From: Clostridia bacterium UC5.1-2E3
Lineage (GTDB): Bacteria; Bacillota; Clostridia; Lachnospirales; Lachnospiraceae
Length of the DNA: 64,000 nucleotides
NCBI GenBank assembly: GCA_001304875.1
Contig: BBZO01000004.1
Span: 1-64,000 of the forward strand
Direction of reading: 5' to 3'
Below the pieces are notes generated by a model. That model worked only from the letters and a program-made list of their open reading frames with translations. It made no database searches and was not told the DNA's origin. How positions within the stretch are numbered: the first letter of the stretch is position 1; each line of letters begins with the position of its first letter. Both the position numbers and the translations under genes were made by a program. Of this stretch, positions 1 to 32,232 are shown in pieces.

Positions 1-206
1 GGCCGGGGACGCTCTGGGGTTTCGTTTGGCGCACAACGCCAAACGAAAAGGGGACTACGGAGAGCAAAATTTCATCAGAAATTTTGATCGAATGTCCCCC
101 GGTCCCCAGAAGCGCCCCCGGCCGGCCGTCTAAGTCATACCCATTGAGGCTCCCGGAACGGTCATCTCCCCCGCTCCTTCCACTGCCCCCGCCGCCTGCG
201 AATCCT
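1..206. repeat. Structured palindromic element A (right part; left part cut off by window start)
   Basis: Two perfect hairpins lie inside a larger fold. TTTCGTTTGGCG (20-31) pairs with CGCCAAACGAAA (37-48) across loop CACAA, and CAAAATTTC (65-73) pairs with GAAATTTTG (78-86). An outer imperfect stem joins 1-19 with 104-123. The right flank to about 206 resembles the right arm of element B near 25.7 kb, sharing a CTAAG segment and a TGCCCCCGCC...CGAATCCT end, so its left arm probably lies upstream of the window. It abuts the 3' end of the lacI-type gene. Function unknown; this is a non-coding repeat. Confidence 0.75.
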
Positions 207-5726: not shown

Positions 5727-6524
5727 ATGGGAGCAAATTTTTCGCTTGAGGGAAAAGTCGCGCTGGTGACAGGCGCTGCCTATGGAATCGGCTTTGCCAT
5801 GGCAAAGGGCCTGGCGGAGGCCGGAGCGTCCATCGCGTTCAACTGCAGAAGCAAGGAGCACATGGACCAGGCGCTGGCCGACTATGAGAAGGCAGGCATC
5901 AAGGCCAAGGGATACATCTGCGATGTGACCGTGGAGGAGGATGTGCAGAAGATGGTGGCTGACATCGAGGCGACCATGGGAACCATCGACATTCTGGTGA
6001 ACAACGCCGGAATCATCAAGAGAATCCCCATGCACGAGATGAAGGCCGAGGAGTTCCGCCAGGTGGTGGACATCGATCTGAACGCCCCGTTCATCGTCTC
6101 CAAGGCGGTGATTCCGGGCATGATGAAGAAGGGGCACGGCAAGATCATCAACGTCTGCTCCATGATGAGCGAGCTGGGACGCGAGACGGTTTCCGCCTAC
6201 GCGGCGGCCAAGGGCGGCTTAAAGATGCTGACGAAAAACATCGCTTCCGAGTACGGCGAGTACAACATCCAGTGCAACGGCATCGGACCGGGCTACATCG
6301 CCACCCCGCAGACCGCGCCGCTGCGCGAGATGCAGCCGGACGGCTCCAGACATCCCTTCGACCAGTTTATCGTGGCCAAGACTCCGCAGGCACGCTGGGG
6401 CACGCCGGAGGACCTGGTGGGGCCGACGGTATTTCTGGCGTCGGACGCCTCCAATTTCGTGAACGGCCATATCCTCTATGTGGACGGAGGCATCCTGGCC
6501 TATATCGGAAAACAGCCGAAGTAG
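5727..6524 (+). CDS. kduD: 2-dehydro-3-deoxy-D-gluconate 5-dehydrogenase (KduD/DhuD)
   Basis: The 265-residue short-chain dehydrogenase has the nucleotide motif TGAAYGIG (residues 15-22), NNAG, and the catalytic Ser-Tyr-Lys set (CSMMS and YAAAKGG). GPGYIATPQTAPLRE and the C-terminal FVNGHILYVDGGILAYIGK are typical of the KduD/gluconate 5-dehydrogenase group. It would reduce 2,5-diketo-3-deoxygluconate to 2-keto-3-deoxygluconate. It starts 30 bp after dhuI with GTGGGAGGA as ribosome site. The later KDG kinase and aldolase are not in this window. Confidence 0.88.
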   Translation: MGANFSLEGKVALVTGAAYGIGFAMAKGLAEAGASIAFNCRSKEHMDQALADYEKAGIKAKGYICDVTVEEDVQKMVADIEATMGTIDILVNNAGIIKRIPMHEMKAEEFRQVVDIDLNAPFIVSKAVIPGMMKKGHGKIINVCSMMSELGRETVSAYAAAKGGLKMLTKNIASEYGEYNIQCNGIGPGYIATPQTAPLREMQPDGSRHPFDQFIVAKTPQARWGTPEDLVGPTVFLASDASNFVNGHILYVDGGILAYIGKQPK

Positions 6525-23344: not shown

Positions 23345-24700
23345 GTGAAGATAGAGAATGATCTGGGAAACGACCGGATTTCCGGCCTGGTCTGGAAGAT
23401 TGCCATTCCCAGTATGCTGGCCCAGTTCGTCAGCGTCTGCTACAGCATTGTGGATCGGATTTACGTCGGAAATATCCCGGAGGTGGGGGACGTGTCCCTG
23501 GCCGGCGTGGGAATCTGCGGGCCCGTGGTGACCATGATCGGCTCCGTGGCATTTCTGGTGGGCGTCGGCGGCGCGCCGATGATGAGTATTCAGATGGGAG
23601 CCGGGAGAGACTGGAAAGCCAGGCGGATTCTGGCCAACGCGTTTCTCATGCTGGCCGTGCTCTCCGTGCTTCTGGTGGCGGCGGTCCTTCCTATCCGCGA
23701 GCCCATGCTGAGACTCTTCGGGGCCAGCGGCGTGACCTACGCCTACGCGGAAACCTATTTCACCATCTACCTGTGCGGAACCCTGTTTGCGCTGATGGCC
23801 ACGGGAATGAACCAGTATATCATCTGCCAGGGCTTTGCCGTGGAGGGCATGAAGTCGGTGATCCTGGGCGCAGTCTGCAATATCGTGCTGGATCCGGTCT
23901 TTATCTTCGTGTTTGACATGGGTGTGGCGGGCGCAGCGCTGGCCACCGTCATAAGCCAGGCGGCCAGCGCCGCTACGTGCTTTCCTTCCTGTTCGGAAAG
24001 CGGACGAAGGTGCGCATCACCTTCGGGGGTTACGACCCGCAGATCATGGGAAAGATCCTGGTCATGGGAATGACGCCGTTTCTCATCGTCGCCATCGACA
24101 ACGTGATGATCATTGCCATGAACGCCGTGCTCCAGAAGTACGGCGGCCGGAGCGGGGCGACGCCTCATCACCTGCAACGCCATCGTGCAGAGCTTCATGC
24201 TGGCGCTGACCATGCCCTTAGGCGGCATCAGTGCGGGCACCCAGAGCATACTAAGCTACAATTTCGGCGCAAAGCAGATCGACCGCGTGATTAAGGCCCA
24301 GAAATACATTATGGCCATGTGCGCCGGCTTCACTGCTATCATGTTCGTGCTGGCGCGGGTGGGCGGAAATATTTTCGTATCCATGTTCACGAAGGACCCG
24401 GAGCTGGCGGCCCAGGCCGTCGAAGCCATCCGCATCTGTACGCTGGCCGTGGTTCCGCTGGGGATTCAGTACGCCATCGTGGACGGCTTCACCGGCCTGG
24501 GACAGGTCCAGCTCGCCCTGCCGCTATCGGCCTGGAGAAAAGCCGTCTATTTCACCGCCGTCTTCATCCTGCCTGCGGTTCTGGGCGCTGATTACGTCTT
24601 CTACGCCCAGCCCATCTCCGACGTGCTGGGCCCGCTGACCAGCATTACCGTGTTCGTCCTGTTCAACAGAAAGGTCCTGACCGCAGGAATGAATGCCTGA
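23345..24700 (+). CDS. MATE family exporter (two frameshifts)
   Basis: About 452 residues of the NorM/DinF-like MATE family, with ISGLVWKIAIPSMLAQFV, IVDRIYVGNIPEVG, VLDPVFIFVFDMGVAGAALATV and GGISAGTQSILSYNFGAKQ. Two -1 shifts near 23975 and 24155 break the middle third; between them YVLSFLFGKRTKVRITF is in the second frame. AAGGAGGAAA is the ribosome site. A second MATE type distinct from the copy at 9.5 kb. Substrate unknown. Confidence 0.88.
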
Positions 24701-24743
24701 ACACATAAAGCCAGATCATATAAAAAATGAAAGGCAGATACAT

Positions 24744-25353
24744 ATGGGATATTTCATACAGGGACTGACCATGGGGCTCGCCTATGTGGCCCCCATCGGT
24801 CTGCAGAATCTCTTCGTCATCAACTCGGCGCTGACACACCCGCGCCGCCGCGCCCTTTTAACGGCCCTCATTGTAATCTTTTTCGACGTAACCCTGGCGC
24901 TGGCCTGCTTTTTCGGTGCCGGCGCGTCATGCAGCGTTCCCGCTGGCTTCAGATGGGCATCCTCCTCTTCGGAAGCATGATCGTCATATGCATAGGCGTC
25001 AGCCTTCTGCGGGCGGCCCCGGAGAAATCGGCGGGCAGGCGACGGCTCTGTCCGTGCGCAAAACCATCTCCTCCGCCTGCGTCGTAACCTGGTTCAACCC
25101 CCAGGCCATAATCGACGGAACCATGATGCTGGGAGCCTTCCGGGCCGCCCTGCCCCCCGCAGAATCCGCCCCCTTCATCACCGGCGTGACCGCTGCATCC
25201 TTCCTCTGGTTCACCGCCGTCACCCTGATTATCTCTACCTTCAGCACCCGCTTCACCCCCGCCGTCCTAAAAACCATCAACCGCATCTGCGGCCTGGTCA
25301 TCATCTTCTACGGCGGTAAGCTGCTGCTGAATTTTATGCAGCCTATCATATAA
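24744..25353 (+). CDS. LysE-family amino acid exporter (two frameshifts)
   Basis: About 204 residues with six hydrophobic segments. The start MGYFIQGLTMGLAYVAPIGL and NLFVINSALTHPRRRAL are typical of LysE/ArgO, as is VVTWFNPQAIIDGTMMLG. Two -1 shifts near 24930 and 25010 are needed; the middle segment LQMGILLFGSMIVICIGVSL lies in another frame. It probably exports a basic or other amino acid. It follows the MATE gene by 43 bp. Confidence 0.85.
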
Positions 25354-25459
25354 TTACGTAGTCATATAGCTGTATAGTTGTCTAAAAACCTGGCAGCTTT
25401 TACCTTTTCATTTTAGAAAAATTAGAATCGTTAGAGAAAGGTACATTCAGCCCGCGAAG

Positions 25460-25726
25460 CATGGGAAGGCATGGGGAGGCGCGCAGCGGCTAGAGGTCTC
25501 GATACGGAGCGGCTTAGATGGGCGGTGCGGTCTGTGCCGGGGTGGAGTCTGGCGCACAACGCCAGACTCCAAGGGGCTATGAAAGAGCAAAATTTCTTCA
25601 AAATTTTGCTCGATTGCCCGATCCCGAGTACAGACCGTGCCGCCCATCTAAGCCGCTCCGTATCGAGACCTCTAGCCCGCTGCGCGCTCCCCATGCCTTC
25701 CCATGCCCCCGCCCCGCGCGAATCCT
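25460..25726. repeat. Structured palindromic element B (complete)
   Basis: A 75-bp left arm (25460-25534) is nearly perfectly complementary to 25631-25706. Inside are two perfect hairpins: GGAGTCTGGCG/CGCCAGACTCC (25544-25570, loop CACAA) and GAGCAAAATTT/AAATTTTGCTC (25585-25611). The core GGCGCACAACGCC and the AGAGCAAAATTTC start of hairpin 2 match element A, and the right end matches A and C. ORFs through it on both strands are by-products of the palindrome. No transposase is nearby. Confidence 0.85.
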
Positions 25727-25761
25727 CCATCCCCTCTCCCCCAAAAAAATTTTCTCCAACA

Positions 25762-25826: not shown

Positions 25827-26387
25827 ATGAATGACGATGCAATCATAACCCTATACTTAAACCGCTCCGAGCAGGCCATCCAGGAGACCGCCGACAAATA
25901 TGAGGCATTCTGTCTCTCCATTGCCTCCCGTATCCTGGGAAACCAGGAGGACGCCAGGGAGTGCGTCAACGAGACCTGGCTGAAGGTGTGGAACTCCATT
26001 CCGCCGCAGATTCCGCGGGCGCTTCCCGCATTCTTAGGAAGCATTGCCCGGAATCTGGCGATCAGCCGTTACCGCAGGGAGAGCGCCTTAAAGCGGGGAA
26101 GCCTGGGACTTACAGTTCCCCTGGAGGAGCTGGCCCAGTGCGTGGACGGAAAAACCTCCGTGGAGGACACCGTACTTCACACGCTTCTTAAGGAGGCTTT
26201 AAACCGTTTCCTGGGAGGGCTTAAGCAGGAAGAGAGGAAAATTTTCGTGCGCAGATACTATTACATGGAATCCTTAAAAGAGATTTCCGAGGGCATGGGG
26301 AGAAAAGAAAGCTATGTGAAAACCTCCCTGCACCGAACACGGGGAAAGCTTCGGGACTATTTAAAGAAGGAGGGACTTTCAGAATGA
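25827..26387 (+). CDS. ECF RNA polymerase sigma factor (SigV-like)
   Basis: 186 residues with sigma region 2 (NQEDARECVNETWLKVWNSI, the -10 binding helix) and region 4 (MESLKEISEGMGRKESYVKTSLHRTRGKL, shown by its HTH). The size and domain order are those of ECF sigma factors. GAGGTG lies before ATG 25827. It overlaps the RsiV-like anti-sigma gene by ATGA. In SigV/RsiV systems the sigma factor is freed by lysozyme binding to the anti-sigma factor and switches on wall-protection genes. Confidence 0.9.
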   Translation: MNDDAIITLYLNRSEQAIQETADKYEAFCLSIASRILGNQEDARECVNETWLKVWNSIPPQIPRALPAFLGSIARNLAISRYRRESALKRGSLGLTVPLEELAQCVDGKTSVEDTVLHTLLKEALNRFLGGLKQEERKIFVRRYYYMESLKEISEGMGRKESYVKTSLHRTRGKLRDYLKKEGLSE

Positions 26388-32087: not shown

Positions 32088-32232
32088 TGCTGCAAAAAGC
32101 GGGGGCATGGGGAAGGACAGCAAAACTAGCTGCGACAAGAGCTGCAAGGATGTATGGACTAAGATGCGAGTCGCCCGGGCCGCTGCCAGATTCACAGCCC
32201 TTTCCCATGCCCCCGCCTTTTTTGCGGCAGCA
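32088..32232. repeat. Structured palindromic element C (divergent copy)
   Basis: GCTGCAAAAAGCGGGGGCAT at 32089-32108, continuing as GGGGAAGG, is complementary (with small bulges) to 32195-32232 (CCCTTTCCCATGCCCCCGCC then TTTTTTGCGGCAGC). The end TTCCCATGCCCCCGCC matches elements A and B, but the inner 75 bp are different and lack the two shared hairpins. It lies between two divergent genes, in the leader of the lipoprotein gene. Confidence 0.6.

Follow-up and report, generated by a model that had tools for sequence, protein, structure and literature searches.

Long hairpin elements dispersed in a Clostridia genome, with arms that are probably kept complementary by arm-to-arm copying

The window, that is the whole 64-kb stretch analysed here, contains between two genes a sequence (element B) that folds into one long hairpin, and the question is whether this hairpin stands alone or belongs to a family, and what keeps its two arms complementary. 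The region 25440-25740 (301 nt) folds with −235.5 kcal/mol, compared to a mean of −113.5 kcal/mol for shuffled sequences (z −21.87), and none of 100 shuffles folded as well. A second element, A, is incomplete: the window comprises the first 64 kb of contig C4, and this contig begins inside A. The fold of A (1-240) gave z −4.36. The sequence-only reading had described a two-hairpin core common to A and B with compensatory differences in the stems outside it, and both points stand: GGCGCACAACGCC and AGAGCAAAATTTC are found in A as well as in B, and the flanking stem bases differ with pairing kept, TTTCGTTTGGCG in A taking the place of GGAGTCTGGCG in B. By match to covariance model R2 the window holds these two copies. 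The inverted repeat at 32094, judged by eye, is probably a remnant, a deletion derivative of the same family. The coordinates of all features are collected in Table 1.

Table 1. Positions of the features discussed, in window coordinates unless a locus is named
Feature	Position	Strand	Remarks
Element A, tip and 3' half	1..206	+	5' arm cut off by the start of contig C4
Neighbour gene, LysE-type transporter	24693..25353	+	two frames, broken by a frameshift in the assembly
Element B, whole unit including constant ends	25448..25725	+	5' CAGCCCGCGAAG, 3' CCCCGCC...GCGAATCC
5' arm of B	25488..25542	+	family 5' motifs kept: CTAGAGG, CGATACGG, CTTAG
Inner structured domain of B	25501..25664	+	match to covariance models R1 (139.7 bits) and R2 (130.5 bits)
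Tip hairpin 1 of B	25544..25570	+	GGAGTCTGGCG CACAA CGCCAGACTCC
Tip hairpin 2 of B	25573..25619	+	internal loop; top GAGCAAAATTT / AAATTTTGCTC
3' arm of B	25623..25677	+	reverse complement of own 5' arm in place of family 3' motifs
Neighbour gene, sigma-70 family sigma factor	25827..26387	+	chosen start codon about 100 nt after B
Inverted repeat with family end sequence CCCATGCCCCCGCC, without tip	32094..32221	.	not a match to R2
Head-to-head units, large hairpin at each end	L103 608-1734; L110 904-1743 (reverse complement)		0.84-1.13 kb

The exact 13-mer core GGCGCACAACGCC occurs 17 times in the host genome, and its reversed control not at all. A first covariance model was built on the inner 166 positions from an alignment of 14 full host-genome copies, in which 65 of the 101 consensus pairs show a double-sided change. 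Covariance-model search of the host genome, as the sequence-only reading had proposed for its suspected family, gave 29 places with the same fold on the correct strand (E ≤ 2.5e-10), the remaining rows of the table being reverse-strand echoes and one weak partial match. The 29 places include C4:1 and C25:6, which are probably the two halves of A: contig C25 also begins inside an element, and the tip of this element is almost identical to that of A (L003, L013). B is thus one of about 28 noncoding hairpin-element copies in its genome.

The host genome is an 80-contig draft assembly, and contig starts lie inside or near elements at C4:1, C25:6 and C2:1; in genome G015 several matches lie no more than about 200 nt from a contig end. 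Assembly apparently breaks down at the elements, and the copy numbers are therefore probably underestimated. The MatE-, LysE- and LacI-type genes of the window (23345-25353 and 468-1307) are split into overlapping frames, which indicates that the draft carries frameshifts or pseudogenes. Contigs that begin inside or near elements, and the frameshifted genes of the window, might lead one to regard the hairpins as inverted chimeras, artefacts of assembly or amplification. This is refuted for the family by the same architecture in many independent genomes, including the one-contig genome G070, and by orthologous copies in two species; an artefact is conceivable for details of B only.

The search was extended to other genomes with the first model, which was positive in nine further genera among 250 genomes of the bacterial family, and with a second model made from 32 copies of nine genomes, which added three genomes of two genera among 392 genomes of the order. 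In the class sample the own genome was the sole match among 391 genomes under strict filters. All genome counts of these wide searches are lower bounds, since only 7-11 candidates were scored per genome and the filters were strict. The ten first carriers gave 128, 65, 55, 31, 20, 15, 7, 6, 5 and 2 matches (E ≤ 0.01, 150 candidates scored in each); these counts may include reverse-strand echoes, so that a single place may be represented more than once. A loose pattern scan returned at least 116 loci, 57 of which were fold-tested; the single positive came from an uncultured Lachnospiraceae genome (L179). Based on this one named record and on kinship labels, the carriers probably belong to the Lachnospiraceae. 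Because mainly the shape is conserved, such elements escape sequence-based repeat finding, even in the genome with 128 model matches.

The window gave no Rfam match at the curated threshold, and in this respect the family does not coincide with a catalogued repeat; such a coincidence was one of the outcomes that the sequence-only reading had named as speaking against it. At low threshold, five loci gave only sub-threshold matches, to plant miRNA precursors on two elements and off the element in the others. Among viral contigs a loose core pattern found 45 loci, none with the fold; a single query with L101 had no match in plasmids, and one with B none in phages.

The elements have an inner domain of about 165 nt with a fixed shape, surrounded by outer arms that vary in sequence and length. 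From the outside inwards, the constant ends are followed by the outer arms and an internal loop. A T.T mismatch separates the next 9 bp from a further stretch of about 26 bp, which leads to a three-way junction; this carries hairpin 1 and hairpin 2 and then a G(G/A)T linker. The loop of hairpin 1 is built around ACA, whose C is present in 32 of 32 copies. Hairpin 2 has an apical TC, again in all 32, and an internal loop whose two sides are mostly GA and GAAT. In the host genome the constant ends read approximately CAGCC(C/A)GCGAA and CCCCGCC....GCGAATCC; in G015 there is mostly an A before the arm and GNCCC after it. The span between the conserved ends is 265-271 nt in 14 host-genome copies. 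Beyond the model, the outer arm of host-genome copies measures 40-43 bp in 23 of 26 rows (one is about 60 bp long and two miss part of the arm), compared to 71-193 bp in 22 copies of G015 and 40-135 bp in other genomes.

In the alignment of 32 copies from nine genomes, each of the 65 inner pairs showed double-sided changes and 94.7% of the cells were paired. The covariation score was 0.897, a value favoured by the fitting of this alignment to the structure of the first model; shuffled alignments scored 0.217 and slid structures 0.10-0.17, with a maximum of 0.165. The T.T mismatch is found in 30 of the 32 copies, the exceptions being B and one other.

B also departs from the norm in its long stem. 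Its longest uninterrupted helix comprises 48 bp, compared to 24-32 bp in 13 other host-genome copies that were folded. The near-perfect stem described earlier is therefore real for B and peculiar to it; as a trait of the family it fails, the norm being a stem with mismatches and loops. At the family loop positions, CTTAG/CTTAG, CGATTCGG/CCCATCG and CTAGAGG/CTCCCGG, the 5' arm of B carries the family motifs and the 3' arm their reverse complement. As the family 3' motifs and the loops are replaced by the complement of the 5' arm, B looks like the direct product of copying its 5' arm onto its 3' arm. B is exceptional in having lost its loops, an indication that copies are no longer propagated once their loops have been erased. 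The perfect arm of B is conceivably an error of assembly, given that broken genes occur in the host draft.

Orthologous copies in two species were used to follow how arms change. G597 is the sole other genome of the genus of G015 among the genomes compared. The 22 copies of G015 led to 17 orthologous regions, nine with a model match and eight without, one of the latter holding a masked run. In five of the nine matched pairs the whole element could be aligned (L124/L162, L117/L166, L120/L167, L128/L168 and L129/L169). Counting outer pairs drawn from the folds of either species over these five loci, a count that left out 59 conflicting pairs, 405 were the same, 80 were changed on both sides with Watson-Crick pairing kept, 24 were changed on one side (9 G-U, 8 A-C, 7 other) and 4 fell elsewhere. 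With independent arms, 6.0 mirrored doubles and 156.1 single-sided changes would be expected. Inner pairs at the same loci comprised 319 unchanged, 18 changed on both sides, 19 on one side (11 G-U, 4 A-C, 4 other) and none of another kind. A first count gave 410 same, 81 double, 25 single and 5 other outer pairs and hides some one-sided changes, as its pairs were taken from the fold of one species; its 81 doubles were 42 transitions and 39 transversions. Indels were mirrored between the arms in the alignments of L129, L117 and L128. The excess of doubles over singles, the transversions making up about half of them and the mirrored indels fit arm-to-arm copying rather than stepwise compensation. 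The likely source of the pairing-preserving changes in the outer arms is thus a templated process in which one arm serves to rewrite the other.

Similar changes might arise by exchange between copies. Twelve outer arms of G015 were searched in G015 (40 of 255 candidates scored), and ten of them matched the two arms of their own element only; those of L125 and L126 had additional matches, at 74-88%, in other elements. When the 22 arms of G015 were compared with one another, their inner parts formed subfamilies, and L114 and L120 were 92.6% alike over the whole arm. Ectopic conversion is unlikely for L124, L128 and L129, whose outer arm is found nowhere else in G015 and which alone account for 59 double and 20 single outer changes. 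Exchange is possible for L120 because of its close relative L114 in the same genome. The argument against exchange thus covers three of the five orthologue pairs, the arm of L117 lying outside the arm search. On the result for the twelve arms, the idea that the arms are captured host DNA was rejected as well.

Arms found in their own element only would also fit fold-back copies made anew at each insertion, from target DNA or by cDNA snap-back, and not converted later. We consider this quite improbable, as both arms of orthologous copies changed together after the species split, and L119 and L155 share their site and outer arm with seven differences, all of them mirrored, around different interiors. 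At L123, L119, L125 and L132 the interior or the whole element could not be aligned with L154, L155, L163 and L161, respectively, and replacement or re-insertion may have occurred there; the outer arms are partly shared at L125 and not recognisably shared at L123 and L132. The orthologue of L116 in the congener is a mini-hairpin of the outermost arm only, and that of L130 a different short sequence. Over 60 nt of flank, the five orthologue pairs differed on the 5' side at 28/58, 26/58, 18/60, 30/57 and 20/54 positions and on the 3' side at 9/60, 4/59, 19/60, 11/60 and 2/56. The 5' flank was the more diverged one in four of the five pairs, an asymmetry that may reflect gene placement rather than a mutational direction.

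These results bear on the claim of the sequence-only reading that changes which keep pairing mean selection on the structure. For the outer arms this does not follow, because copying fits them. Selection is better shown by what survives copying, namely the T.T mismatch in 30 of 32 copies and the conserved loop bases, than by the paired changes. Covariation is usually taken as proof of RNA structure, and the family serves as a warning that it can arise from DNA copying.

A transcribed, structured RNA under ordinary compensatory selection, with the arms covarying stepwise via G-U intermediates, would also account for the strong covariation and for the conservation of the loops, which include a tandem G.A-like motif. 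Within the inner domain, G-U pairs outnumbered A-C pairs by 61 to 22 in model-fitted alignments, and in stem 3 by 60 to 24 when a wobble-blind aligner was used. The excess in stem 3 came mainly from the own genome (29 to 5) and G070 (11 to 0); the ratio was inverted in G026 (4 to 11), and relatives alone gave 31 to 19 (p 0.12). As the copies are not independent, the excess is a hint of selection at the RNA level on the inner domain, and we did not rely on the wobble test, which proved uneven across genomes on recount. In the outer arms, however, 79 copies gave 4745 Watson-Crick pairs, 56 G-U and 50 A-C, with no preference for wobble, and the orthologous loci show a surplus of double changes, about half of them transversions, together with mirrored indels. 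Nor is there a consistent orientation to neighbouring ORFs: the four gene orientations were taken by 12, 10, 9 and 5 of 36 copies, by the crude rule of the nearest ORF of at least 90 codons. An ORF of this length, of a kind that a palindrome easily generates, overlaps the core in 15 of the 36. We therefore hold the RNA explanation to be possible but doubtful.

Evidence for movement came from G568 and G179, genomes of two genera, where copies 94-99% identical over the hairpin part sit in different flanks, which suggests that the family was mobile in the past. Some units in these genomes, about 0.84 and 1.13 kb long, consist of two hairpins in opposite orientation separated by a noncoding spacer, and the two units read contained no open stretch above 77 codons. 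Head-to-head pairs of elements recur in several genomes. In L068, paired copies at 5921 and 7821 were considered as possibly enclosing a gene; the open frames of the 1.7 kb between them reach about 120 codons.

Terminal repeats bound units of about 0.3-1.1 kb in these two genomes, and some of the units have a hairpin at both ends. This recalls an ordinary MITE family with long terminal inverted repeats, moved by a DDE transposase. Terminal inverted repeats are indeed present, in the units of G568 and G179 and elsewhere as the arms themselves. In G568, the one genus searched for ends, six terminal-repeat pairs enclosed 301-1114 bp, and none of them was a longer unit with the same ends. A target-site duplication was not seen either: in 23 own and 22 G015 copies, direct repeats in the flanks were no longer than in mismatched flank pairs, a crude test with the constant end sequence lying inside the tested stretch. 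As in addition the inner architecture is conserved across genera and the arms are not, a MITE origin appears improbable. The lack of a visible target duplication, the conservation of shape instead of sequence and the head-to-head pairs, as in BIMEs, would fit a single-stranded-DNA transposition substrate of the IS200/IS605 or REP/RAYT type that is moved by a Y1 transposase encoded elsewhere. The element is, however, far larger than REPs (20-40 bp according to PMC3733652) and its copies have no common neighbouring protein, and we find this explanation rather unlikely. In a comparison of 32 neighbourhoods, the most widely distributed protein had similar proteins in seven other neighbourhoods, and the five annotated window proteins include no transposase, in agreement with the absence of an adjacent one reported from the sequence.

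In summary, we consider it probable that B is a copy of a dispersed, noncoding and apparently non-autonomous family whose arms are kept complementary by arm-to-arm copying. The inner domain would be recognised in trans as a single strand, of RNA or of single-stranded DNA, and this recognition would have let copies spread, mobility being indicated indirectly. For the outer arms no requirement for a particular sequence is visible. While the hairpin is being replicated, the polymerase may switch template between the arms and copy one onto the other, and selection would remove copies whose loops were erased in this way, B being such an overwritten copy. Each carrier genome would then provide a natural experiment, with many replicates, on the copying between palindrome arms that takes place during replication. 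More tentatively, the family could be a shape-recognised bacterial selfish element, in which the branched fold is what is transmitted and the arms are a sequence-free handle renewed by copying. In this similarly speculative idea the transmissible fold would be defined by exact distances, from the internal loop over 9 bp to the T.T mismatch and over about 26 bp to the three-way junction. If it were true, families could diverge beyond sequence recognition and yet stay functional, and the elements would take the place in bacteria of SINEs or of ssDNA replicons with hairpin ends.

Several known systems share some of these properties. Integron attC sites are recognised by hairpin shape and unpaired bases, the stem sequence being largely free. 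The elements resemble them in that shape prevails over stem sequence, but are far longer, and the box pair RYYYAAC / GTTRRRY is absent from the ends of all 45 copies inspected, one of which has the first box alone. The terminal palindromes of parvovirus type form a T or Y shape, with a long stem and two small hairpins at the tip. By analogy, the long stem with two tip hairpins, sometimes one at each unit end, may be compared to these, whereas the copies described here are chromosomal and gave no viral match in the viral-contig and phage searches. ERIC sequences are imperfect palindromes of about 100-300 bp, noncoding and scattered over intergenic regions. The family is likewise dispersed, noncoding and palindromic when set beside ERIC, RU and other intergenic palindromic repeats of bacteria (see PMC2759123). 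It differs in that its sequence is hardly conserved between genera, while the branched inner architecture is conserved and the arms evolve in concert.

REP and REPIN hairpins often occur in head-to-head pairs, as here, but measure 20-40 bp compared to about 265 to more than 500 bp. The sections of PMC3733652 on the CGTC families report them from Proteobacteria, Chlorobi, Bacteroidetes, Spirochaetes and Thermotogae, and these families seem to have no dedicated transposase there. Neither a GTAG nor a CGTC tetranucleotide appeared in the end logos of 22 G015 and 24 own copies.

Closest to the copying proposed here are hairpins maintained by template switching. Template switching has been described as creating and maintaining hairpins (PMC8794818), and the mitochondrial palindromes of nematomorphs show concerted evolution of their arms (PMC6649704; see also PMC7202029). 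The likeness to such hairpins in rRNA stems, quasipalindromes and nematomorph palindromes lies in the correction of arms to each other, and the simultaneous mirrored changes typical of quasipalindromes are present (80 double compared to 24 single, and the overwritten arm of B). In contrast to them, the hairpins described here form a dispersed repeat family with arms of up to about 190 bp and persistent inner mismatches. Searches of open-licence PMC papers with our terms brought up no description of this hairpin family.

Two further observations concern contig C4. The flanks of L037 and L052 (G000:C4 75630 and 79187) resemble each other on visual inspection, which recalls a segmental duplication; one of the two copies has lost its tip, and their arm differences look one-sided, as in decaying copies. 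Finally, an AT-rich repeat around ACTAAAAATAT occurs at 1402-1525 of the window in three spaced copies, which are possibly operator sites.
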